From positions 30,024 to 94,023 of the forward strand of contig JACDNU010000004.1 in the NCBI GenBank assembly GCA_017656505.1: a stretch of DNA of 64,000 nt, in the 5' to 3' direction. This DNA is from Archaeoglobus sp. (GTDB lineage: Archaea; Halobacteriota; Archaeoglobi; Archaeoglobales; Archaeoglobaceae). The number at the start of each line of letters is the position of its first letter. Position 1 is the stretch's first letter. Positions 5,335 to 50,613 of the stretch are shown here, piece after piece. The notes below the pieces were generated by a model. It was not told where the DNA came from, did no database searches, and saw only the letters and a list, made by a program, of their open reading frames with translations. The position numbers and the translations under genes were made by a program.

Positions 5335-7179
5335 TTATTCAGATAACCCTCTTCTACTCACATAGAGGTAAGAGTAAAGTCCGCCTAACACTATCAGTCC
5401 CATCCCAAGCCATACGAAGTTTGCAAGCCTGTTGATGTGCACTTCTATTCCAACTTTCTTTAAATCGCTTGAAATCCCATTAATTGAGACGTACAAATCA
5501 TGGAGTGGGAAGCTCATGATCTCAACCGAGGAGACAACCCTGTCCTGTCTGATAATCTTGTACTCTCTCATTTCTGGCTTTAGCGTTCCTATAAGCTTCC
5601 CATTCTCGTAAATCTGGATTTCTGCAAAGATGGAGAATTTTTCTCCATCCTCCCTTGCGTTAAGTTTCACAAACTTTAATTCGTATCCATCTATGGTTGC
5701 AGTTTCTCCAGGACTCAGAGCGAATTGCTGGGTGTTGGAGAGACTCCAAACCCCTATCGAACCGATAAAAAGGAACATTACACCTATATGCACAACGTAA
5801 GCACCGTATCTTCTTAAAAACCTCATCTTTCCTGTGTAAAAGGCTACCAGGTAGTTCAGCAAGGAGAAAGCAAAAAGCCCAGCGGCTAGGGAGGCTAGAA
5901 TGCTTCTCGAAAGGGCGAATGATGAAAGCGAAGCGATCAGAAATATGATGGATGGGATTAGGAATTTCTCTCTCAGTTCTCCATCCCAGCCCCACTTCAG
6001 CCTTATGCAGAGTCCGAAAAGGGCGAACAGGATTATTTCAACTGGGAACATTATCGACTCGTAGTATTTCCTCCCCAGTTCAAATCCGAAAGCGGGTATC
6101 AGAGTGCCAATAAGAACGCCAAGAAAGAGCATCAGAATAACGAGTAAATAAACAAGGATGGATGTTTCTCTGTTGATGGAAATCCTAAGCTCATCTCCTC
6201 CCCTAAAACCGTTCCTTTTGACATATATGGATACAACCGCAGAGATAACTATGACCAAGAGAAAAATAACTCCTTCAGGCCCCTCGCCGAAAGCATGAAC
6301 CGATGAAACTATTCCACTTCGGGTAACAAATGCTGCGAATACCACCAGAATGAAGGTTAACACCAGCAGATAGTAATTTGCGGAAATTATCCACGAACCC
6401 TTAGCCCTTTTCTGGAGGTAAAAGGTGTGAAAAACGAGGGTCGAGGTAAGCCACGGAAGCATCGAAGAATTCTCAACCGGGTCCCATCCCCAAAAACCTC
6501 CCCAACCCAGTGTCCGATAAGCCCACCATCCGCCAACGAAGATTCCTAGGCCGAGCAAGATCCATGATGGTAGCAAATACTTCATCGCCCTCTCTTCCCA
6601 GTCCTTTCCTAGGGCATATCCTGAAACGGCCATTGCAAACGGGATGAGGAGTCCGGCATAGGCAGCGAAAACGATTGGTGGATGGATTACCATCTCCAGA
6701 GTTCTTAACAGTGGATTTAATCCCACTCCCTCTGGCTGGGCTGGAATTCTCGTGAAGGGATTTGAGGTTGTAAGCAAAAGGATGTTAATCAGCAGAAGAA
6801 ACAGGCCAGAAATTGCGAGGGTATAAGCGGTCAGACTGTCCTTTTTATCGGAAAGAACGAAAAGATTTACCGTGGCTATGAAAAGAGCCCAAAGCAGAAG
6901 CGAGCCTTCTTTTCCAGCCCAGAATGCACTGACTGTAAGGAGCAAGGAAAGCTTGGAATCGGAGTTATAGAAAACGTATTCGTAAGAAAAATCTTTTGAG
7001 AGGAAGTGAGAGAGGAGCAAAAGACTTGAGAAGAGAATGGCAAGAAAGTACAGAAAAACTGCTTTTTCACCGTTTTGCAGCAAATCAGCCGATCTTTTTT
7101 TTACTCCAGCGTAGAATGCGTAAACGGAGTACGCTACTAATATCAAAGAAGCCAGAAGCAGAATTTCACCCACGTCCAT
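5335..7179 (-). CDS. ccmF: Cytochrome c maturation heme lyase CcmF
   Basis: 614 aa polytopic; WWD-domain signature WGGFWGWDPVENSSMLPWL. Confidence 0.93.
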   Translation of the reverse strand: MDVGEILLLASLILVAYSVYAFYAGVKKRSADLLQNGEKAVFLYFLAILFSSLLLLSHFLSKDFSYEYVFYNSDSKLSLLLTVSAFWAGKEGSLLLWALFIATVNLFVLSDKKDSLTAYTLAISGLFLLLINILLLTTSNPFTRIPAQPEGVGLNPLLRTLEMVIHPPIVFAAYAGLLIPFAMAVSGYALGKDWEERAMKYLLPSWILLGLGIFVGGWWAYRTLGWGGFWGWDPVENSSMLPWLTSTLVFHTFYLQKRAKGSWIISANYYLLVLTFILVVFAAFVTRSGIVSSVHAFGEGPEGVIFLLVIVISAVVSIYVKRNGFRGGDELRISINRETSILVYLLVILMLFLGVLIGTLIPAFGFELGRKYYESIMFPVEIILFALFGLCIRLKWGWDGELREKFLIPSIIFLIASLSSFALSRSILASLAAGLFAFSLLNYLVAFYTGKMRFLRRYGAYVVHIGVMFLFIGSIGVWSLSNTQQFALSPGETATIDGYELKFVKLNAREDGEKFSIFAEIQIYENGKLIGTLKPEMREYKIIRQDRVVSSVEIMSFPLHDLYVSINGISSDLKKVGIEVHINRLANFVWLGMGLIVLGGLYSYLYVSRRGLSE

Positions 7180-30089: not shown

Positions 30090-31550
30090 ATGAGAGTTCT
30101 GGCCGTAACGGGAAAGCTCGCCGAGAAAGACGTTAGGAGATATGCTGTGGGAGCTGACATTTTGGTAGTTGATATTGATGTTGCCGCATTTATAACTCCA
30201 AAGCATTTGGAGAGAGAGGATTTAAGCGGTTACGATCTCGTTCTCGTTCCGGGTTTAACCTCGGCAAATTGGGAGAGGCTGGAAAAAGAGAAAAATGTAA
30301 AAATCAGACTCGGCCCGATTCACGCTTACGATCTCCAGTTTCTCATGCCCTTGATTGGAGAAATAGAGCTGAGCCATACGGTTCCTGCATGTAGGCTGAT
30401 CAAAGAAAGAAAGAAGGAGGAAATCCTAAGTTTGGTTGGGCAAATTCAGGATTACAAGTTTAGCATAGGAAATGTCCCGGTTGGTGGTAAAAGCCGGATG
30501 AAAGTTGTTGCAGAGGTTGTTGATGCTACGAAGCTCGGTGAGAATGAATTAGCCAGAAAAATAAGATATTACGAAAAAAGCGGAGCAGACATAATCGATC
30601 TCGGCTTACCGCTGGAAGTAAAGCCTGAAGAGGTTGAGTTGGCAATCGATATTGCAAGAAAGGCGACAGATCTACCTTTGAGTGTTGATACCTTCGACAT
30701 CAAAGCGATAGAAGCAGCGATCGATGCTGGAATAGACATGGTGATGAGCATCTCTCAAAAGAACGAGGAAGCAATCGACTTGATCGATGGACAAGCTGTC
30801 GTTGTGGTCGAGAGGGATGTTAAAGCTTTGCTTAAACTTTTGGGCAAGGTTAGGGAGAAAACCGAGAAAGTTATAGCCGATCCCGTTCTTGATCCACCTT
30901 TAAGGCTGGCAGAATCAATTTTGCGGTACAGGAACTTCAGAGAGCTGGATAAGGAAACACCCATGCTGTTCGGGGTTGGAAATGTTACCGAGCTCGCAGA
31001 TTCCGATTCAATTGGAATCAATGCCATTCTCGCTTTTATAGCGGAAGAATTGCAAGCGAACCTTCTTTTTACGACGGAAGCAAGTCCGAAGACAGCTGGC
31101 AGCGTTAGAGAGTTATCCGTAGCGTCTTACATGGCAAAGGCTGCGAAACTTCGAAACACTGCCCCAAAAGATCTCGGGCTAGATCTGCTCGTTTTGAAGG
31201 AGAAAGTCAGGCTTGAAAGCTGCTCTCTGCCGGAAAATGCTTTAAATGCCGAAGAGAGCGAAAAATTCATCAGAGATCCGTTTGGCGACTTCAGAGTATG
31301 GATCAGCGAAGGCAAGATCGTTTGCAGCCATGAAAGGCTCACAGTGGTGGGCAGAAATGCTAAGGAGATATATGATACCGTTTTAAGGAATAAACTCATC
31401 TCAAGGCTTGATCACGCTTGCTACCTGGGGAAAGAACTGATGAAGGCGGAAATCGCTCTGATGCTTGGAAAGAACTATACTCAGGATCAAGATCTGAATT
31501 TCGGAATATATTCTGATTCGCTTGAAGATGGGGAGAGGGAGCATAACTAA
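30090..31550 (+). CDS. Dihydropteroate synthase-like protein
   Basis: Pterin-binding barrel features: SGADIIDLGLPLEVKPEEVE...PLSVDTFDIKAIEAAIDAGIDMVMSI. Confidence 0.8.
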   Translation: MRVLAVTGKLAEKDVRRYAVGADILVVDIDVAAFITPKHLEREDLSGYDLVLVPGLTSANWERLEKEKNVKIRLGPIHAYDLQFLMPLIGEIELSHTVPACRLIKERKKEEILSLVGQIQDYKFSIGNVPVGGKSRMKVVAEVVDATKLGENELARKIRYYEKSGADIIDLGLPLEVKPEEVELAIDIARKATDLPLSVDTFDIKAIEAAIDAGIDMVMSISQKNEEAIDLIDGQAVVVVERDVKALLKLLGKVREKTEKVIADPVLDPPLRLAESILRYRNFRELDKETPMLFGVGNVTELADSDSIGINAILAFIAEELQANLLFTTEASPKTAGSVRELSVASYMAKAAKLRNTAPKDLGLDLLVLKEKVRLESCSLPENALNAEESEKFIRDPFGDFRVWISEGKIVCSHERLTVVGRNAKEIYDTVLRNKLISRLDHACYLGKELMKAEIALMLGKNYTQDQDLNFGIYSDSLEDGEREHN

Positions 31551-31625
31551 GAGAGAGCATAATTAAATTTGAGAAATCCAAAAATCCAAAAAAGACTTCT
31601 ACTTTTAACATCGAAATGGTTAGAA

Positions 31626-32510
31626 ATGACGGTCATCGTCGATCGGGTAGAGAGTTATGAGAAAGTTTGGGGCTTCGTTGAAAGGGTTTTTGCCAACCTC
31701 GATTTATTTGAAAATCTGAAAAGGAGGTTTTCAAAAAACTTGCTAGAAATTGACGATTTGCCTAGGAAGGTAATCGTAAAACCGAATTTTCTCAAATGGA
31801 TTGATCTGGATTCGGGCTGCGTTACCCATCCGGAGTTGATAAAGGCGGTTGCCTCATTTTTAGCCGGCAGTAATCAGGAGATTTTTATTTTAGAGGGTGG
31901 TTTCACAAAGAATGCTGCCGATCGCTATTTCAACGAATTCGGGCTTTACAGATATGGAAATTGTATAAACTTGAATACTGGCAGATTTATCGAAGTTCAG
32001 GTTGACGGAGAGAAGCTTAGGAGCGTTAAAGCCTCCGAAATTGCGGTTAAATTATTGAAAGAATCATTTTTCATAAGCCTCCCGAAGCTCAAGGTACATC
32101 ATTTAACGAAGGTAACGATCTCGATCAAGAACAACATGGGTTTTCTGAAGAAGCCGGCCGTAAGCATGCACCTCAGCATAAATCCAAAACTCGTCGATCT
32201 TTTGAACGTTTTCAACCCCCATCTGATTATCGTTGATGGTGTGGTGGGCGGAGAAAATTCGGAGAGCAATACTAGGCCAGTCAGGCATGGGGTTATGCTC
32301 GCCGGAGACAACGCTGTGGAGGTTGATGCTGTGGGAGCCTATTTGATGGGATTTGAGCCTGAGGACATAGGATTCCTCAAAATCGCTTGTGAAAGAGGGC
32401 TTGGAGAAATCAGAATCGATAAGATAGACGTTGTCGGGGATTTGGAAGGATTAAGAAAGAGATATGGTATTTCGAGTTTGAGAAGATTTTTAGGGAGATT
32501 GAGCATCTGA
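31626..32510 (+). CDS. DUF362-family protein
   Basis: KVIVKPNFLKWID...SLPKLKVHHLTKVTISIKNNMGFL...VVGGENSESNTRPVRHGVMLAGDNAVEVDAVGAYLMGFEPEDIGFL; exact start uncertain. Confidence 0.8.
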   Translation: MTVIVDRVESYEKVWGFVERVFANLDLFENLKRRFSKNLLEIDDLPRKVIVKPNFLKWIDLDSGCVTHPELIKAVASFLAGSNQEIFILEGGFTKNAADRYFNEFGLYRYGNCINLNTGRFIEVQVDGEKLRSVKASEIAVKLLKESFFISLPKLKVHHLTKVTISIKNNMGFLKKPAVSMHLSINPKLVDLLNVFNPHLIIVDGVVGGENSESNTRPVRHGVMLAGDNAVEVDAVGAYLMGFEPEDIGFLKIACERGLGEIRIDKIDVVGDLEGLRKRYGISSLRRFLGRLSI

Positions 32511-32607: not shown

Positions 32608-33654
32608 TTGCTGAGAATGAAGGTAAAGGAGAAAAGGATTGATGAGGGCAGACTTAGCCTGGACATGCTGATAGGTTTATCCATCTTTCTCTTCGCATTC
32701 ATATTTATCGGGCAGTTTCTGCCATCTGTCTTTGCCGATGCAAGGAGTGAAATCTCCGTTTTTGCGGAAGCTTACAAGGTTAGTGTTTTGCTTACGGAAG
32801 ATCCAGGGAGATGGATTAACCGTGCGAATACAAGTGAGAAAGGTTTCCATTGGGAGAGCGAGTGGTACAAGGATAATATAAGTTTCAGACCAGGCCTTGC
32901 GAGGGTTGGAAGGGCTGGTTTTATAAGTTTAAACAAATTAATGGAATTCAAGAATGCAACCCTTCATTATGGGGGATCGTATGCCAATGATACATGGATA
33001 AGAGACGTTTTCGGGCTTGATAGTCCTTCAAATTCATATCATGTGAATATCTCCCTTCTTATTCCCTATTCCACCTCATATAACCAGTATTACTCTAGAA
33101 ACAATAGCGGTCAAAATGTTTTGACAATAGGCCCTCCAATTCCTAACAAAAAAGTATCCCGATATGAGAGACTTGTAAATCTTCCAGTTTATAGCGACTT
33201 CATCCAGCATTACGCTAACTTGCCGAATAACGTTAATTACAGGATAAATTCGACTTTTCCACTCGGTGGAGCACTGCTGATTGTTAGGAATACAAGCAAT
33301 ATACATGCACAATGTTGGGTGGAGGTTAGAGTCAATCTAACAAATACGACCTCTCTCAATTCCACTTACGAAACAGTCTATGAACTGGGTGACAGAGTTG
33401 GAAGCACTTGCGACATCACAAATCTAACTGGAATTTACCCCTTAACAAGAGAGCTTAATGAAGGTTATGAAGAGGTTTATGAGAACTTCACTCAAACTTA
33501 TAACGAATTACCCGATAACCAGTCTGTCGTGGTTAGAATTAAAAATCTCAATTGTACTTTTGCCCTTTCCAATGTTGGAGAGATTATCGGAGATTTGTCG
33601 AGCAATGAGGCAAGGATAGTTTCAAAGCTTGTAGTTACGGTATGGGAGGGGTAG
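32608..33654 (+). CDS. Type-IV-pilin-like secreted/membrane-anchored protein
   Basis: N-terminus RIDEGRLSLDMLIGLSIFLFAFIFIGQFL then an N-glycosylation-sequon-rich ectodomain; start uncertain. Confidence 0.75.
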   Translation: MLRMKVKEKRIDEGRLSLDMLIGLSIFLFAFIFIGQFLPSVFADARSEISVFAEAYKVSVLLTEDPGRWINRANTSEKGFHWESEWYKDNISFRPGLARVGRAGFISLNKLMEFKNATLHYGGSYANDTWIRDVFGLDSPSNSYHVNISLLIPYSTSYNQYYSRNNSGQNVLTIGPPIPNKKVSRYERLVNLPVYSDFIQHYANLPNNVNYRINSTFPLGGALLIVRNTSNIHAQCWVEVRVNLTNTTSLNSTYETVYELGDRVGSTCDITNLTGIYPLTRELNEGYEEVYENFTQTYNELPDNQSVVVRIKNLNCTFALSNVGEIIGDLSSNEARIVSKLVVTVWEG

Positions 33655-33655
33655 C

Positions 33656-34216
33656 ATGATTCGGGTAATGTCAGATGAAAAAGGCCAGGCATTCACGCTC
33701 GAAGGAATTACAGCCGCACTGCTCATTCTCATCGTTACTTACACTTTATTTGAGAGCTCGGTTGTGGTTTCGCCCATATGGAGCGAGTATGGAGATATAC
33801 AGTTAAAGCAGCTTGGTTACGACGTTCTGAGATCATTGGACGTTCACAGAACTAACATGAATCTTTCTGCCTGTCCAGATACGCAAAATATCACCAGAAA
33901 CTCGCTGCAGTATATGCTCATCCAGCTCAATACTTCAAATCCACAACCCAACCAAGAATTTCTAAACGCCCTCGACATGATGCTTGATCCTTCAATTAAG
34001 AAAAGACTTGAAGTTTACTGGGTCAACCAGTCGAATAATAACACCATCGAGCATCTGGTGTTGATTAACAATACCCCTATTCCTGACGCTGTAGGCGTGA
34101 GCAGGATTATCGTGCTTTATCCGTGTGATGTAACCTCGTCTTCGCCGTTTTATGGAAGCTTTACCAACGATACAGCCTTGGCCGTTGAAGTTAGGATGAT
34201 CCTATGGCATGTTTAA
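33656..34216 (+). CDS. Type-IV-pilin-like protein
   Basis: SDEKGQAFTLEGITAALLILIVTYTLFES, class III signal-peptide-like. Confidence 0.75.
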   Translation: MIRVMSDEKGQAFTLEGITAALLILIVTYTLFESSVVVSPIWSEYGDIQLKQLGYDVLRSLDVHRTNMNLSACPDTQNITRNSLQYMLIQLNTSNPQPNQEFLNALDMMLDPSIKKRLEVYWVNQSNNNTIEHLVLINNTPIPDAVGVSRIIVLYPCDVTSSSPFYGSFTNDTALAVEVRMILWHV

Positions 34217-34222
34217 GAGTAA

Positions 34223-34672
34223 TTGAGAGGTGAAAAAATGGTTAAAAAGAGTTTAAGAAAAGGAGAAAGAAAAAGAGAACTGAGAAATGATGAATCGGGA
34301 CAGGTTCTAATTCTTTTCTCGCTCATAGTTGCAACTCTAATCGCATCTCTTGCAATCCTTCACGCTCAAAATCTTATTGCTGGGGTAGAGAGCTCCAGAG
34401 CATTTCTAAGCTTTCCCAAGGATGATATAAGGAATTTAAAGGTTATAGCACGGTTGGATTTTCAGCATCTAGATTGTGATGCTGAAGAGAAGCTGATTGA
34501 CCAAATTAAATTGCTCTACGCCAGCAAAGGGACTTATGTGGATTTCGAAACGATATCTAGCCATCATTACCAACTCGTTTACAGCAACAGCGAGGTATAC
34601 TTTACCGAGTCGCTCTATGTTGAAGATGAGGATATTTGGTTGCCCTCAGGTGGTGGAGGAGGTGCATCGTGA
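34223..34672 (+). CDS. Type-IV-pilin-like protein
   Basis: RNDESGQVLILFSLIVATLIASLAILHAQ; TGATG overlap with the next gene. Confidence 0.75.
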   Translation: MRGEKMVKKSLRKGERKRELRNDESGQVLILFSLIVATLIASLAILHAQNLIAGVESSRAFLSFPKDDIRNLKVIARLDFQHLDCDAEEKLIDQIKLLYASKGTYVDFETISSHHYQLVYSNSEVYFTESLYVEDEDIWLPSGGGGGAS

Positions 34673-37524
34673 TGAATTGTAAGTTTAGCGGTAGGAAAAT
34701 TTGTATGGAAAGTTTGAATGGATTTTTGGAAGATGAAAAGGGAGTCTCTCCACTTTTAGAGTATCTGATGCTGGTAACGATAGCTTCGGTTTTCGTTCTC
34801 TTACTTGGACTCTATCTCAATTCCGTTTTTGCAGATTCTGTGACAAAAACAGTTCTTGAGAACCAGCTGTCTGATGTTGGAGCAGAGATCAGCGCGCAGA
34901 TGGTTGATATGTATCTGCTTTACCCTTCCGATGGACAGTTTTCTGCAAAGATTTACATGCCTGAAAAGGTTGGGGACTATGAGATAATCAGCACTTTTGA
35001 AAACATAGGTGGAAAGCCGTATTTAGTAATTCAATCCGAAACTGGGGAAATCAAGAAATACGTCGGTCTGGGGAATCTACCTCTCGATTTCTCTCTCAAC
35101 GGGTCGACTCATAGCATGCAAGAAGATAAAAACATAACCTATTCAACTGAAAATTACATCTATCCCACGGCTATAATTATCGCCGGACCGACTTTGATAA
35201 AGAGTGGTATGCAAGTTGAATTTGATCCAAGATTCTCCAAGACCGATGATGGGTATTTTGAATACCAAATTGATTTTGGAGATGGAAACGTCACTCCAAG
35301 ACTGGTTTATGATGACTTCAATGATACGGTTCTCCACACCTATTATACCTCCTCAGAAACGAATTACACGGCAACACTCCAGATTTGGGACAGACTTGGT
35401 TACACAGCAAATGATTCTATTAGGATTCATGTCATGCCTAATACTAGCACGCCAAATCCTGAGATGTTCATAGATAAGTTCGTTAGTCCAGGGTATGCAA
35501 ATCTTGGTGATCCTGTGACCATCCATATTTTCATGAGAGGTGAGGGTTTCAGAACCGCTCCTCGATACTTGGATGTAGTTCACGTTATTGATGTCTCGGG
35601 CAGCATGTCTCCGGATTACATGGACTACTACTTTAATGACAGGGATTACGGTTATACACCCTACCATACGTTTTCAGGTACCTTAGGCCCAGAGGTGTGG
35701 GAGGATACTTTTGAAGTTAACCAAACCGGAAGCGATGTTGTTTATGAGGTTGTAGCGTATACGAATGACACCTATGGTTCAGTAAATCACTGGTATAGTT
35801 CCAGTTACTATGATTCAATTCAGCTTTACGTGGAAGGGCCCACGGGATCAGTTGGCAACTCCAATGGAATAATCAATTCTCCGCCAATGTATGGAAAAAG
35901 ATTCACAGTTACGAATCCTCAAATTGGCAATTGGACGATTAAGGTTATTGGACTATTCCCCGATGAATCCCCTTACGATAGAACCGACCTTCATGTAAGA
36001 GTTTATAGATATAACCTAAGCACTCAGTATGAAACGGGTTCCGTTACTCTGGGATGGGGATATGATGTAGAGAACTACTACTTTAATGTGGGATCAGACG
36101 TTTCAAAACTTACGATCAAAACATCGAGCAATAAGAAATATTATCTGAGAATCTACAACCCCAGTGGAGGAATTGTTTACAACGGCGGCTATTCAACGTT
36201 ACATCTCTGGAGCACGGATGATCCCGAGGACGGAACTTGGAGGTTGCGGATTTATAAATATTGGGGGGGTTCAAGAACAGTAAACATCAACATAACCAAA
36301 CAAAACCAAACCAATACCCAGTTGATAAAAACTTGGGATACTGACTACTACTCGTCATCGCAGAAATTGGAATTCAACTTGTCAATACCCTGTGAAGACT
36401 TGAAAATCACCTTCGATAGCACAGCTGTTTCACCAACTTATGCTTGGATAAATGGTTTGGGCTTTACGCTAGATCCAATCGACATCAGTTCTTCCCAGCA
36501 AGAAGTAAGAGCTTCGGATTCTGTTGATCCACAGGGAGATTACAAAATATATATTGTTGACGGATATAGCGAAAGCAACATAAATTACAATGTAGAAACC
36601 AGAATAGGAAAACTGGACGCGGCAAAAATATCTGGTCTGAGCTTCAATGGGGTACTTGCAAATAATGATTCTGTTGGATTGGTAGAGTTCAGCTCAAACT
36701 ATAATGGATATTTTGGAACCCATTCGATCGCTCAGCTCGATAATTACCTAACGAGTGACAAAACCATGGTTAATGGATCTATCTTGGCTCTATTCGGTGC
36801 TGGAGGAACCGGAATGGGTGAAGGCATAAAATTAGCCTACAACGAACTTAAAACCAACGGCACTCCAGGGAGGATTCATGCGATAGTCTTGCTCTCTGAC
36901 GGTGAAGCAAACATTGCTGATGGATGGTGTGGTGGGAATTATTACTACTGTGACGGCTCGAGTTCGTGTGTCGATGAAGCAAAAGATTATGCAAGATGTT
37001 GGGCTAGTATGGCTAAAGCTGATAACATAACGATTTACACAGTCGCTTTGGGTGATGCAGCAGATCCAAACCTTATGGAGGAATTGGCTTCCGGAACCGA
37101 CTACTTCTATCCAGCGGATAGGGCTGATGAGCTCATCAACGCATACATACAAATCGCAACAGAATTAAGGGAAAAGGCTGCCGAGAACATAACCGTTACT
37201 GATGTAATACCGCCAAATGTTGAACTCGATCCAAGCTCTATAGAGATTAAGCTTGGAAGTGGATTAGTAAATAACTTCCAGATAATAGATACGCCTAACG
37301 GAACTGCTCTGCAATGGGAGATTCCACAGATAAATATCTCAGACATTTGGCATGTCTCATTCAGAGTTACCTCAAATACTACAGGCCTGATAGGCCTTGA
37401 TGTTCCGGATGTTAGCAATGTAACATATACACCCTATCCCTTCAGCAGTACAAAAATCTACTATCTGCCGAACGAGACTGTGATATACTCTACCGGTCAG
37501 AGAGCAAGCATGACCCTTGGTTAG
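34672..37524 (+). CDS. Large surface vWA/PKD-like protein with pilin-like N-terminus
   Basis: ATG 34672 overlaps the upstream TGA (ATGA); DEKGVSPLLEYLMLVTIASVFVLLLGLY; PKD-like YQIDFGDGN; MIDAS DVSGSMS; GVLANNDSVGLVEFSSN; LLSDGEAN. Confidence 0.85.
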   Translation: MNCKFSGRKICMESLNGFLEDEKGVSPLLEYLMLVTIASVFVLLLGLYLNSVFADSVTKTVLENQLSDVGAEISAQMVDMYLLYPSDGQFSAKIYMPEKVGDYEIISTFENIGGKPYLVIQSETGEIKKYVGLGNLPLDFSLNGSTHSMQEDKNITYSTENYIYPTAIIIAGPTLIKSGMQVEFDPRFSKTDDGYFEYQIDFGDGNVTPRLVYDDFNDTVLHTYYTSSETNYTATLQIWDRLGYTANDSIRIHVMPNTSTPNPEMFIDKFVSPGYANLGDPVTIHIFMRGEGFRTAPRYLDVVHVIDVSGSMSPDYMDYYFNDRDYGYTPYHTFSGTLGPEVWEDTFEVNQTGSDVVYEVVAYTNDTYGSVNHWYSSSYYDSIQLYVEGPTGSVGNSNGIINSPPMYGKRFTVTNPQIGNWTIKVIGLFPDESPYDRTDLHVRVYRYNLSTQYETGSVTLGWGYDVENYYFNVGSDVSKLTIKTSSNKKYYLRIYNPSGGIVYNGGYSTLHLWSTDDPEDGTWRLRIYKYWGGSRTVNINITKQNQTNTQLIKTWDTDYYSSSQKLEFNLSIPCEDLKITFDSTAVSPTYAWINGLGFTLDPIDISSSQQEVRASDSVDPQGDYKIYIVDGYSESNINYNVETRIGKLDAAKISGLSFNGVLANNDSVGLVEFSSNYNGYFGTHSIAQLDNYLTSDKTMVNGSILALFGAGGTGMGEGIKLAYNELKTNGTPGRIHAIVLLSDGEANIADGWCGGNYYYCDGSSSCVDEAKDYARCWASMAKADNITIYTVALGDAADPNLMEELASGTDYFYPADRADELINAYIQIATELREKAAENITVTDVIPPNVELDPSSIEIKLGSGLVNNFQIIDTPNGTALQWEIPQINISDIWHVSFRVTSNTTGLIGLDVPDVSNVTYTPYPFSSTKIYYLPNETVIYSTGQRASMTLG

Positions 37525-37567
37525 TTGGAAACTGGTAGCTAATTAAGAAAATTTGGTTGGAACTTGG

Positions 37568-38359
37568 ATGAAGAGGAGACAAAAGAAACAAAAACGGGAA
37601 AGTAGGATGGATTCAGGAGTTTCAGAGGTACTCGGTAGTGTAATCATCATTCTGATAATCTCCGCAACCATCGCAATCCTCTTCGCAACCGCATGGCCGA
37701 TAATGGATGGTGTTAGGGGTAACATCAGGGAGGGCGGTATAAAGGATGCCTTCTACAGCTTTAAGGAGATGGTCGACAGAACCCTGGCTGGTGTGGATCC
37801 GGAGATGGCGATAAAGTTCCCACTAAGCGGTGGCAGGCTTTATACGAATTCCTCCACCAAGGTTGTGATAGGAGTCTACCGGTGGAATGCGAGCAACGGT
37901 TCAATGGATCTTGTCTATTCAACACCTGCAAAATACGAGTATGTTGGCAGGATGGTTTATGATTACAATGGCGATTGGAAGTACATTTACGAGCTTGGTG
38001 CCCTAATCAAAGAGCGGGATGGTTATGCAAAGGTTATCTCATCCCCACGAATCACTTATTTAGAAAGAACCCTCGGTCACAGATATCTCAGCCTCCCAAT
38101 TGTAATCGTCGATGGAAACATGTCGTATGGAGGGTCTGGGAGTCCGATGGTTAAGGTGGAAGTGCTGGAAGTCAAAACATACGACTTCTACAACGCAACT
38201 TTGGAATTCTCTGTCGAATCTGAGAACAACTTTGCTTGGTATAACTATCTTAACAGTATTGGGATGAATGTCTCGATCGTTGGAAATCAGGTAACAACCT
38301 TCCAGCGGCATTATGATGAGGTTCATTTTACCTATTATCGGATTCAGGTGGGGTACTGA
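37568..38359 (+). CDS. Type-IV-pilin-like protein
   Basis: RMDSGVSEVLGSVIIILIISATIAILFATAWP; ATGA overlap with the next gene. Confidence 0.75.
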   Translation: MKRRQKKQKRESRMDSGVSEVLGSVIIILIISATIAILFATAWPIMDGVRGNIREGGIKDAFYSFKEMVDRTLAGVDPEMAIKFPLSGGRLYTNSSTKVVIGVYRWNASNGSMDLVYSTPAKYEYVGRMVYDYNGDWKYIYELGALIKERDGYAKVISSPRITYLERTLGHRYLSLPIVIVDGNMSYGGSGSPMVKVEVLEVKTYDFYNATLEFSVESENNFAWYNYLNSIGMNVSIVGNQVTTFQRHYDEVHFTYYRIQVGY

Positions 38360-39159
38360 TGAGGGTGGTTAATCCAAAAATTAATTCAAACAAACAAAGA
38401 AAACAAAAGCAAAGCCCGGATGAAAGGGCGGTTTCGGAGGTATTGAGTTACATCTTCGTTTTCGCAATAGTTGTGGCAGTCGTCTCTATAGTTTATCTCC
38501 AAGTCAATCACATCATCGAAGATACCCGTGACAAGATGAAAGTCGAAGGATTGAGGCAGAGCTATAAAAGAGTTCAGAATGTAATTCAGATAACGACTTA
38601 CTCCGATGCACCTTCTCAAACGATCGAATTCGAGCTTCAGGGTGGGTCTCTATACTTGAGGCAAGACCCGACCTTCGTGATTATGGTTGAAAATGACACA
38701 ATACCCGTTTCAACCGGCTCGTTAACCTATGAATTCAAAGACTATGAGATCACCTATGAGAATGGAGGGATCTGGGAAAGCTATTATGGGAACCACAAGA
38801 TGGTTGCGGAGCCAAGAATCTTTATCCACCATCGTAACATCGATAACCAAACGATAATCGTGGTGGTTCTTACGAGGTTAAACGGTTCCTTCTCCTACTC
38901 TGGGTCTGGTTCTGTAAGACTCGATTTTGAGAAAGTAAATACCACAGTTAGTACCTATGAAATAAACGGGAATCTGAGGATTTATTACGGAAATTCAGAG
39001 TATGCCGATATGTGGGAAGACTTCTTCCAAAACATAAAAACCGTAGAAGGAAATGTTGCATCGGTGCAAGTTGACACGATAAACGACTATGCCCAGTTTT
39101 CATTTAACAAGCTGATAATAACTTCCTATGAGGTGCTTGTGAGGAGTATTGCCACCTGA
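38359..39159 (+). CDS. Type-IV-pilin-like protein
   Basis: PDERAVSEVLSYIFVFAIVVAVVSIVYLQV. Confidence 0.75.
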   Translation: MRVVNPKINSNKQRKQKQSPDERAVSEVLSYIFVFAIVVAVVSIVYLQVNHIIEDTRDKMKVEGLRQSYKRVQNVIQITTYSDAPSQTIEFELQGGSLYLRQDPTFVIMVENDTIPVSTGSLTYEFKDYEITYENGGIWESYYGNHKMVAEPRIFIHHRNIDNQTIIVVVLTRLNGSFSYSGSGSVRLDFEKVNTTVSTYEINGNLRIYYGNSEYADMWEDFFQNIKTVEGNVASVQVDTINDYAQFSFNKLIITSYEVLVRSIAT

Positions 39160-39268: not shown

Positions 39269-41032
39269 TCAATATGCTTTATGGATACCATTATATATAA
39301 TCTCCCGTAGCTCCCCTAGTTCGCCATCTTTTCCCTCCAGCCCTACCTCTATCACCCCTGAAATTCTAGCAAGTGGGTTTCTTATCTCATCTACCAGAAT
39401 CGCATAGTTTTCGATATTCCTTTCAATCTGCTCGAATGCCCTCTTTTTGGATTCATCTAGCTCAATTTTGTTCAAAGCAAAGGCAAGATCGTTTGCAAGG
39501 GTTTGGAGCAAGCTTATCTCTTCTTGGGGAAAAGCTTTTGGAGAATGGATGATTGTAAAACCTACAGTCTTATTATCAGATACCATTGGCAGCAATAAAC
39601 AGTAAAGTTTCTCATCGCAATTAGGGCAAACTGATTTCTTTTTATTGGGTGTGAGCATCATAACTCTATTCCCTTCAGCAAACCCCAAGCGTTTCATACA
39701 TTCGGGTTCTTCTTTTTCAGAGGGTGGCGCATTACCATGAAAGCTCGCGAGTTCAAACCGCTCACCATTTTTTAGCCAAACGCAGACTATGTAATACTCT
39801 TTAAGGGAGGATAGAAGTTTGCATGCCTCGTCTAACAGAAGTTTCGGATTTGTTTCACGAACTATAAGCTGGTTGATGTTATTTACAACACCCAAAATTC
39901 TATACATTCTTTTTGTTTCGGTTATCTCATTGCCTATCGCCATACAGTATCTTTTCCCTTGAAATGTGATCGGGAGTCCGGTGATTATGAAATCTCTCCC
40001 CTCTCTTGAATCCTCAAAAGTTACTATCCTATTCTCACTTAGAACCAAATTGAGAAACTTCATTCTTTTGTCGGCGACTTCTTTGGGAAGAATGTCGTAA
40101 ATGTTCTTTCCTATCGGATTCTCCCCTAAGCTCTTCTGTGCACTCGAATTTGCATCAATAAAAGTTCCATTTTCATCAAGAATTGCAATCAACGCGGGAG
40201 ACATTTCAAAAATCATCCTGTATTTTTCTTCACTCTCCTTTATAATCCGCTCTGTAGCCTTCCTATCTGTTATATCTCTAAAATTCACGACTATTCCTTT
40301 AACAGCGGGATCGTGCAGTAAATTCTGGCCAGTTGCCTCGACCCATACAATTCTCCCTTCTTTATGAACCGTCCTAAACTCTATTGTTTTTGGAACCCCT
40401 GGATTTTCAAGGAGAAATCTCAAATTTTCCAAAACGAATTTGATGTCTTCAGGGTAACCAAATTTAAATACGCTCTCTCCTATGAGCTCTTCTGGCTCAT
40501 ACCCTGCAATCCTTTTTACTGAAGGTGAAATGTATTTTATTGCTCCCGTTTCATCTATAACCATCATTATGTCTATCGAGTTCTCAACCAAAGCCCTGAA
40601 CCACCTATCCTTTTCTCTAAGTTTCTCTTCTACTTTTTTATCTTTGGTGACGTCTCTGGCTATTCCTTGGATCGCTTTGACTTCATTATTCTCGATTATC
40701 GGCCTAAGTTTTACATCTACTAGTATTTCCTTTCCATTGCCCCTCCACAAAAGCTCCGAAATTGAAACTTCAGCTTTGGATCTAATTACCTCCTCTATTT
40801 TCCTGAAAAATTCAGGCAGGTGTCTTTTATCGACGATCTTTTTTAGATTCAAACCTTCTATTTCATCATCTTTATAACCAAGCAGATTTCTAGCGGTTTT
40901 ATTTAACTCCAAAAAATTTCCTTTAGGGTCGATGACAAAAAGAATATCACTCGCATTTTCCCAGAGATATCTGTAACCGTCTTTATCTTCTATCGCTTGA
41001 GCTAACGTCTCGCTCTGGAATTTTTGTACCAT
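39269..41032 (-). CDS. PAS-PAS-PAS-GAF signal-transduction protein with degenerate DHp-like segment; apparent C-terminal frameshift
   Basis: Three PAS repeats, GAF-like region, YAILVDEIRNPLARISGVIE; no HATPase; coding-like C-terminus continues in another frame to 39175. Confidence 0.8.
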   Translation of the reverse strand: MVQKFQSETLAQAIEDKDGYRYLWENASDILFVIDPKGNFLELNKTARNLLGYKDDEIEGLNLKKIVDKRHLPEFFRKIEEVIRSKAEVSISELLWRGNGKEILVDVKLRPIIENNEVKAIQGIARDVTKDKKVEEKLREKDRWFRALVENSIDIMMVIDETGAIKYISPSVKRIAGYEPEELIGESVFKFGYPEDIKFVLENLRFLLENPGVPKTIEFRTVHKEGRIVWVEATGQNLLHDPAVKGIVVNFRDITDRKATERIIKESEEKYRMIFEMSPALIAILDENGTFIDANSSAQKSLGENPIGKNIYDILPKEVADKRMKFLNLVLSENRIVTFEDSREGRDFIITGLPITFQGKRYCMAIGNEITETKRMYRILGVVNNINQLIVRETNPKLLLDEACKLLSSLKEYYIVCVWLKNGERFELASFHGNAPPSEKEEPECMKRLGFAEGNRVMMLTPNKKKSVCPNCDEKLYCLLLPMVSDNKTVGFTIIHSPKAFPQEEISLLQTLANDLAFALNKIELDESKKRAFEQIERNIENYAILVDEIRNPLARISGVIEVGLEGKDGELGELREIIYNGIHKAY

Positions 41033-48975: not shown

Positions 48976-50613
48976 TTATTCCAGAATTTTCTCAGAAACA
49001 GCAACAACTGTTGTTTTCTCCATTTTGCCGTAATTCCCAAGAAATTCGTTTACGAGAGCTGTAGGAGTTTTTGAGAGATCTGAAAGAAAGCGATGGGAGA
49101 CGGGCTGATAGAAAACCTCAACTAGAACTTTCCTAGCCCTTCCATCATCTGCTATGGTATAGGTTACAGTATCACTCCCACCAATGAAATTCTCGTCTCC
49201 ATCCACACCCCTAGGAACCGTGTCAGAATGCATTTTGTTTGGATCAGCCCCCTCTGGTAGAATTCTGTTATCTTTGATGTATTCTGCTGCTCTAAGGAGC
49301 GTTGAAGTTACCATTCCACCGGAATCAACCATGACTGACTCGTAGATCTGAACCTCGTTTTCGCTGGTTATTACATCGTGATGTTTTTCAAACGGCTCGT
49401 CTTCCCCGATAATCCTTCCGTTGGCAGTATAATTCCCCGATTCGAAGATGGTCTTTCCTTCTCCATCCACGACTTTCAGATAAATCCAGGCTCTTCTGGA
49501 GGGGAAGCCAGTCGGGAACTTATGGCCTGCGAAATTCAAAATCCTAACTTTGACGACGAGTTTATCACCTTCTCTCTCCGTCTCAAGGCTAACTGAAACG
49601 GCTGACTTTAGTTTATCTAAAGTGGCTGAAGCATTCATTCCCATAAGTTTAAGAATTTGAACGTTTCCTCCTGCAAATTCATGGATGTAGAATGGAGACC
49701 TTGCCGGAAGAAACTTGGGGTTTGCAGGGATTTTTGAGATTCTCACACCTTTGGTTTGAGGCATGTGGCAGCTCTGGCAAGACACCTTTTTCGCATAGCT
49801 GCTCGACAACCACTCGAGATATGGTGTTTGTTCGGGGAAATGCCCTAGAAACTCCCCCTTTTCATCAAAATAGGGTGTGTAGAGGGTGTGACAGATCGCG
49901 CAGAGTTCGGCTTTCTCAATCTGTTCGCCTTTTTTGGGCAGGTATCCGACGACACCTCTCATTAACTCTGCCATTTCAGGCTCAAATGGGCCGTAGATAA
50001 GTCTATCCGGCTTAAAAGTTGAAGAATCGATCGAATAGTTTCCTGAAAAGCTATCTTCATTCCCCAATCTTTTGTTTTCAATCTGATGGCAGAGCGTGCA
50101 TGACACTCCTTCAACCGCAAGCTCATGGTATTGATTATCTTTTTCGAGTAAGGTAAAGAGTGCACTCTCTTCTCCGTCGACCTTTGCCTGAAATGCCGCC
50201 ATGGGTGTATGGCACTTCGCACATTCCCTCTCTATGATCTTGGAATCTCCAGAGAATTTTTCAATTTCCGAAGTAAGCTTTGCCAGGAAATAAGGATCTT
50301 TCGCTGCGTTTGCAAGCATCGTATTTCTCCAGCTTGAGTGAATTGAAACGTCATTGCCAAATGAGTCTTTCAACCCATTGTGGCATTTCGAGCAGGGTTT
50401 TGATGGAGAGAACATCTCCGGAATTTCTTCTGAGCGTTGAACCTCTGAAATCTTTTGCGTCTCCTTTGGGGTTTCAGGCTGAGGTTGAGGTTGAGGCTGA
50501 GCACATCCGATTAGAAAAGTGGTGAGTAAAAAGCAAACAGAAAAGGCTAAAACAGTTAAAAGAGTTGAGGCAGTTAAAATAGAGGAAAATCTCTTCTCAG
50601 ACATAATAACCAT
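48976..50613 (-). CDS. Pentaheme c-type cytochrome, probable lipoprotein
   Basis: Five CXXCH: CSKCH, CAKCH, CTLCH, CAICH, CQSCH; N-terminal hydrophobic segment ending LIGC then PQPQPQP. Confidence 0.92.
   Translation of the reverse strand: MVIMSEKRFSSILTASTLLTVLAFSVCFLLTTFLIGCAQPQPQPQPETPKETQKISEVQRSEEIPEMFSPSKPCSKCHNGLKDSFGNDVSIHSSWRNTMLANAAKDPYFLAKLTSEIEKFSGDSKIIERECAKCHTPMAAFQAKVDGEESALFTLLEKDNQYHELAVEGVSCTLCHQIENKRLGNEDSFSGNYSIDSSTFKPDRLIYGPFEPEMAELMRGVVGYLPKKGEQIEKAELCAICHTLYTPYFDEKGEFLGHFPEQTPYLEWLSSSYAKKVSCQSCHMPQTKGVRISKIPANPKFLPARSPFYIHEFAGGNVQILKLMGMNASATLDKLKSAVSVSLETEREGDKLVVKVRILNFAGHKFPTGFPSRRAWIYLKVVDGEGKTIFESGNYTANGRIIGEDEPFEKHHDVITSENEVQIYESVMVDSGGMVTSTLLRAAEYIKDNRILPEGADPNKMHSDTVPRGVDGDENFIGGSDTVTYTIADDGRARKVLVEVFYQPVSHRFLSDLSKTPTALVNEFLGNYGKMEKTTVVAVSEKILE

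Follow-up and report, generated by a model that had tools for sequence, protein, structure and literature searches.

Six Pilin Genes of Archaeoglobus, One Bearing a vWA Domain: A Probable Tip Complex of a Known Kind of Archaeal Pilus

What kind of surface structure is encoded by a row of six archaeal genes in which small pilin-like proteins surround a giant protein with a vWA domain, and what might this giant protein do? Such a locus lies in the 64-kb window analysed here (G000:C4:30024-94023), taken from an Archaeoglobus genome of 2.52 Mb in 95 contigs. An initial annotation made from the window alone had interpreted it as an operon of type IV pilin-like proteins and as a candidate for a new archaeal surface pilus. 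Below, we argue that the genes most probably belong to a pilus of an already described kind, while the vWA graft on one of its pilins is new.

Organization of the Pilin Operon

According to the open reading frame list and to inspection of the sequence, six consecutive, co-directional + strand genes occupy positions 32608-39159, as initially annotated. They are listed below, with a slash marking the predicted cleavage site.

32608..33654, + strand: slot 1 pilin, DUF7287-like (E 3.7e-5), 348 aa; start at TTG 32608 or ATG 32617; predicted cleavage after G14 (DEG/RLSLDML)
33656..34216, + strand: slot 2 pilin, DUF7288 (E 7e-15), 186 aa; predicted cleavage after G10 (DEKG/QAFTLEG)
34223..34672, + strand: slot 3 pilin, DUF7261-related (via orthologs), 149 aa; predicted cleavage after G26 (DESG/QVLILF)
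34669..37524, + strand: slot 4 modular pilin, 951 aa; class III signal (DEKG/VSPLLEY), DUF7266 module, PKD domain, split vWA domain and C-terminal beta domain
37553..38359, + strand: slot 5 pilin, DUF7289 (E 1.7e-16), 268 aa; predicted cleavage after G22 (MDSG/VSEVLG)
38359..39159, + strand: slot 6 pilin, DUF7289 (E 3.8e-26), 266 aa; predicted cleavage after A24 (DERA/VSEVLS)

From gene 1 to gene 6, the intergenic spacings are +1, +6, -4, +28 and -1 nt. The two overlaps (34669-34674 and 38357-38361) had been described as ATGA but are TGATG stop-start overlaps instead. Ribosome-binding-like sites precede genes 2, 3 (at ATG 34238), 4 and 6. Judging by its position behind a GAGGTGA site, ATG 34238 is very likely the start of gene 3; genes 1 and 5 perhaps start at ATG 32617 and ATG 37568, respectively. 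Upstream, at 30090-32510, there are genes for a DHPS-like pterin protein (TIGR00284) and a DUF362 protein, which probably stand outside the operon, since none but the nearest relatives have retained them.

Pilin Families and Class III Signals

Pfam recognised DUF7288 in protein 2 and DUF7289 in proteins 5 and 6; the DUF7287 match of protein 1 was just under the cut-off. Protein 3 itself had no Pfam match, and DUF7261 was matched by 9 of its 25 aligned relatives (best E 2.5e-7). For protein 4, PKD_4 and VWA were found together with a weak N-terminal DUF7266, a family for which a short ortholog (L064) scored above the cut-off. A search of NCBIfam added nothing of use on these proteins. A literature search on the DUF names of these families returned no paper using them. 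The reading proposed here would give provisional roles to five Pfam families of "unknown function": DUF7261, DUF7266, DUF7287, DUF7288 and DUF7289.

The AlphaFold model of the slot 6 protein, built with 37 relatives (pLDDT 90), consists of a 62-residue helix (residues 20-81) followed by an all-beta head. A Foldseek search with this model matched no solved structure at E <= 0.001, giving insignificant matches only, and for this reason the assignment of a pilin fold relies on the helix-plus-beta architecture together with the family signal. The same order, a long N-terminal helix and then strands, recurs in the other modelled protein, that of slot 4 (helix 28-84).

Class III signals on all six proteins had been proposed from the start, and the motifs bear this out. 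A charged stretch followed by G/A and a hydrophobic helix is found in 6/6 operon proteins versus 3/54 other genes of the window, by a rule (acidic/basic residues, G/A, hydrophobic helix) written after the motifs had been seen. A strict FlaFind-like residue rule is passed by three of the six (P2, P4 and P6); P1 misses it because of R at +1, and P3 and P5 because of S at -2. In our view, the stronger evidence for the signals is their conservation in orthologs: under the loose rule, 41/43, 42/43, 41/42, 44/46 and 70/78 members of the five families carry the motif, often just 3-8 residues past the start codon. Each slot has its own version, namely G/[QKR]LSLDxLIG in slot 1, G/QxFTLEG in slot 2, G/Qxx[IL] in slot 3 (with Q at +1 invariant in 25 orthologs), G/VSxLxEY in slot 4 and [GA]/VSEVLG in slots 5 and 6. 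We suppose that the six proteins would be inserted into the membrane and cut after G/A by the product of the single prepilin peptidase gene of the genome (G000:C12:15968-16264). The proteins also contain 56 N-glycosylation sequons versus 22 expected from composition, a density about eightfold that of other window ORFs and one that is to be expected for surface proteins.

The Modular vWA Pilin

The giant vWA protein of the initial annotation is the 951-aa product of gene 4. Its parts are as follows, all on the + strand.

34729..35118, +: DUF7266 pilin module, residues ~21-150; long helix 28-84 and short strands
35164..35427, +: PKD domain, residues 166-253 (E 1.1e-7); structural match to the PKD domain of ColG (4tn9)
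35590..35604, +: first part of the vWA MIDAS, D308-V-S310-G-S312; DxSxS in 18/18 sequences covering the site
35635..36603, +: beta-rich insert inside the vWA domain, residues ~323-645; species-variable and nearly absent in L050
36658..37128, +: second part of the vWA domain, residues 664-820; MIDAS T714 (36808-36810) and D744 (36898-36900), invariant in 19 sequences
37174..37521, +: C-terminal beta domain, residues ~836-951; the ortholog L046 matches DUF11 and, weakly, a tip-pilin GBS104-like Ig domain

In the alignment of 19 relatives, the MIDAS of protein 4 is complete (D308, S310, S312, T714 and D744). The model has a pLDDT of 82 overall, with modest values of about 60-70 in the pilin part, and its best solved matches are SpaC, Mfa5 (a type V pilus tip), PitA and RrgA, all of them pilus adhesins. 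When the sequence of the vWA protein was searched against the PDB, collagenase PKD domains were the only matches.

In most genomes, the slot 4 protein is a DUF7266 pilin of ~130-180 aa, to which ~800 residues have been added in Archaeoglobales. When a tree was computed from the pilin portions alone, 18/18 vWA-type clusters formed one clade (100/100). Among the matches listed, DUF7266-family frames of >= 750 aa come from Archaeoglobales only (at least 24 Archaeoglobaceae, plus G037), and the longest one outside this order has 506 aa. Such a topology, together with the confinement of long frames among these matches, most likely indicates that the vWA graft arose once, on a pilin that is small elsewhere.

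Conservation of the Module and Alternative Adhesive Heads

A single-sequence scan of the genome contigs revealed two near relatives and no more. Across the relatives, DUF7288 is present in 46/60, all five families occur together in 40/43 loci with module members, and the order DUF7287-DUF7288-DUF7261 (slot 3)-DUF7266 (slot 4)-DUF7289 is kept in 37/43. The module ranges from Archaeoglobaceae to methanogens and haloarchaeon-like genomes, and a DUF7266 pilin is found in 153/197 genomes across the phylum. The genes flanking the cluster are not conserved beyond the nearest kin; therefore, we delimit the module to five or six genes here. The initial annotation had made its reading depend on conservation of the cluster in related genomes, which thus proved to be strong; families, signals and conserved order agree with its proposal that these are pilin-like proteins of one operon.

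The vWA head is not the only one found in this module. In three clusters (L044, L051 and L060), few as independent cases, the slot 3 protein reaches 787-907 aa and carries bacterial Ig-like domains, slot 4 being small there. No locus among those examined combines an Ig-like slot 3 with a vWA slot 4. G037 has two clusters with alternative giant subunits, an Ig-like slot 3 in L060 and a vWA slot 4 in L061. A separate large vWA protein adjoins the module in L052 and L068. With slot 3, slot 4 and neighbouring genes all involved, adhesin-like heads appear to be repeatedly tied to the module in alternative positions.

It is tempting to go further and to suppose that the six proteins are a fixed hetero-oligomeric tip complex that starts pilus assembly across Halobacteriota, with slots 3 and 4 as sockets for exchangeable adhesive heads. 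Lineages, and even the single genome G037, might then switch binding specificity by which pilin bears the vWA or Ig-like head. We offer this broader scenario tentatively and would not be surprised if it proved wrong.

Some of these loci have further features. The protein adjoining the module in L052 (L052:2837-6130, +), where slot 4 is small, is a 1097-aa vWA/PKD/Ig protein encoded on the opposite strand with an apparently ordinary Sec signal. Locus L069 (G047:C1:2410000-2429999) has the complete pilin module twice in tandem; L068, from the same genome, harbours a third, rearranged pilin set, and its adjoining vWA/Ig protein has 1310 aa.

Putative Assembly Machinery

The 64-kb window contains no T2SSE or T2SSF gene (pilB/pilC), in agreement with the initial annotation, which had placed the assembly machinery elsewhere. 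Indeed, PilB-like ATPases are encoded on contigs C5, C7, C32 and C12, all but that of C7 having a PilC partner on the contig; the C12 locus is that of the archaellum. In 11 relatives (L042, L046, L049, L052, L057, L062, L066, L067, L074, L075 and L076), genes of PilB/PilC type are found near the cluster, and we therefore attribute the missing motor of the window to gene dispersal.

In the ATPase tree, the C5 PilB grouped (100/98) inside a 100/100 clade with the PilBs found beside the vWA-type clusters L046 and L049. The C32 PilB joined the PilBs that accompany the small-type clusters L042 and L057, which have no vWA graft, and this is why we prefer C5 over C32. The C5 PilB/PilC pair is thus the likeliest partner motor of the pilin set, a preference and not a proof, since archaeal motors can share pilin sets (PMC4858521; PMC6491452). 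The PilB of C7 was considered as well, with C5 preferred. The PF00437 match on C6, weak at 25 bits and with no PilC neighbour, is unlikely to represent a pilus motor. Two genes past the PilB/PilC pair of C32, a 1250-aa DUF11 surface protein is encoded (L014:5151-8903), possibly an S-layer-like component of the C32 pilus.

Does the module need a motor at all? The proteins might be processed as pilins and yet form a membrane-anchored, bindosome-like complex that never grows into a long filament and serves as an adhesin or sensor at the level of the S-layer. Such a complex would fit the large ectodomains rich in glycosylation sequons, as well as the fact that no motor gene stands beside the locus in its own genome and in many relatives. 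We nevertheless hold it for hardly probable, as motor genes are close by in the 11 relatives, which come from several lineages, and the helices are preserved as in filament pilins.

A second possibility is a type-II-secretion-like pseudopilus, i.e., a short piston or scaffold for protein export whose vWA protein handles cargo and takes no part in adhesion. Class III signals and linkage to PilB/PilC would look identical in this case, and type II secretion likewise has several distinct minor pseudopilins in one operon, GspH-I-J-K. However, the module has no consistent linkage to any gene for cargo or specific to secretion, and its slot 4 head is similar to pilus adhesins, Ig-like heads being the alternative. 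Moreover, an outer membrane is not known from such archaea. Overall, we regard a pseudopilus as very unlikely and retain a pilus as the preferred reading.

Relation to Known Pilus Systems

The initial annotation had proposed a new pilus, a claim that we do not uphold: the pilin set matches a published one, and the pilus is thus not a new system. In our literature search on Archaeoglobus vWA pilins, only the 2016 census by Makarova, Koonin and Albers was directly relevant. It describes two euryarchaeal clade-2 type IV pilus systems (PMC4858521), and the six genes correspond to its PilB4-type pilin set, by description and PilB linkage, not by arCOG numbers. Both are multi-pilin sets linked to PilB/TadC. 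The duplicated, variable-length all-beta pilin of the census (arCOG02911) resembles, as described, the DUF7289 pilins, which are mostly 217-508 aa long and often come in two copies. The PilB4-type set also has a dedicated major pilin, arCOG03926. In addition, the module of L067, from a haloarchaeon-like genome with high GC and acidic proteins, is adjoined by an 867-aa PilB, similar to the extended halobacterial PilB4. The roles of most minor pilins of the PilB4-type set are stated there as unknown (PMC4858521). In contrast to our locus, the census text describes no pilin with a vWA graft, its archaeal vWA proteins being ArnB-type regulators. Similarly, in the Haloferax volcanii PilB1-C1 operon, needed for full adhesion, PilB/PilC adjoin pilins of clade-2 type (PMC6491452), but no vWA pilin is mentioned and the motor belongs to clade 4C.

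We found no paper describing an archaeal vWA modular pilin in the open-access literature. Bacterial counterparts are known, one being PilB of S. sanguinis, a solved modular type IV pilin that is active in adhesion and has a metal-binding MIDAS (PMC8179133). It shares with the slot 4 protein a class III signal, a small pilin module and a bulky vWA domain with MIDAS flanked by arms. The archaeal head is larger (PKD, long beta insert and C-terminal beta domain), and the pilin modules differ, bacterial in one case and DUF7266 in the other, so the vWA graft was apparently acquired independently. The Gram-positive tip pilins RrgA, GBS104 and SpaC also have a vWA domain with inserted arms plus Ig-like domains, but they are joined by sortase, while slot 4 uses a prepilin-type N-terminus.

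A resemblance to bacterial TadE/F/G had been noted as well. It holds for architecture: in Caulobacter CpaL, a TadG ortholog, the vWA domain is split by a beta-rich domain (PMC12607857), and CpaL shares with slot 4 a minor-pilin-like N-terminus, a set with several minor pilins and the structural neighbours SpaC, RrgA and Mfa5. It does not extend to homology, as no TadE, TadF or Tad family appeared among the Pfam matches to the six proteins up to E 1; hence we reject membership and treat TadE/F/G as an analogy. Convergence is indicated by the fact that most of the phylum has the slot 4 pilin without the graft.

The same architecture raises the question of whether the vWA pilin, with the pilin part as in our preferred reading, is mainly a force or contact sensor that controls the pilus, as proposed for CpaL and for PilY1 of P. 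aeruginosa. Such a role is favoured by the shared layout, in which a beta-rich region interrupts the vWA domain that is joined to a pilin-like module. No signalling pathway, however, is conserved beside the cluster, and the alternative heads of slot 3 are Ig-like repeats, better suited to adhesion, which makes a primary sensor rather unlikely in our opinion.

We thus consider it quite probable that the six genes encode co-assembled minor pilins of a euryarchaeal type IV pilus that form a tip complex, with the vWA pilin as the adhesin; the tip location and the adhesive role are suggested by precedent and architecture. In this scenario, PilB/PilC encoded elsewhere, most likely the C5 pair, would assemble the processed pilins via their N-terminal helices. 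The six pilins would probably make up the initiating and tip complex, and the bulk pilin would come from another locus, two PilA-type genes on C19 being candidates. The DUF7266 part of slot 4 would dock in the filament, and the exposed PKD-vWA-beta head might bind a ligand or surface via the MIDAS metal. New here is therefore not the pilus itself, which is of a known kind, but the vWA graft on slot 4, along with adhesin slots that can be interchanged. A gene order conserved over six slots, a vWA graft of single origin and Ig-like grafts on slot 3 together lead to a testable idea, namely that these are tip subunits of which the grafted one is the adhesin. If true, the vWA pilus-tip design known from sortase pili, Bacteroidetes type V pili, S. 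sanguinis and Tad pili would extend to hyperthermophilic archaea, apparently as an independent invention.

Other Genes in the Window

Convergent with the pilin operon is a gene for a PAS-PAS-PAS-GAF sensor protein (39269-41032, - strand), which stops just past its HisKA segment, leaving ~110 nt before the operon. Pfam found no HATPase domain in it, so the protein looks like a histidine kinase without a catalytic domain. The window also encodes a 545-aa multihaem c-type cytochrome (48976-50613, - strand) with five CxxCH motifs and weak similarity to MtrC/MtrF, and a CcmF-type cytochrome assembly gene is found at 5335-7179.
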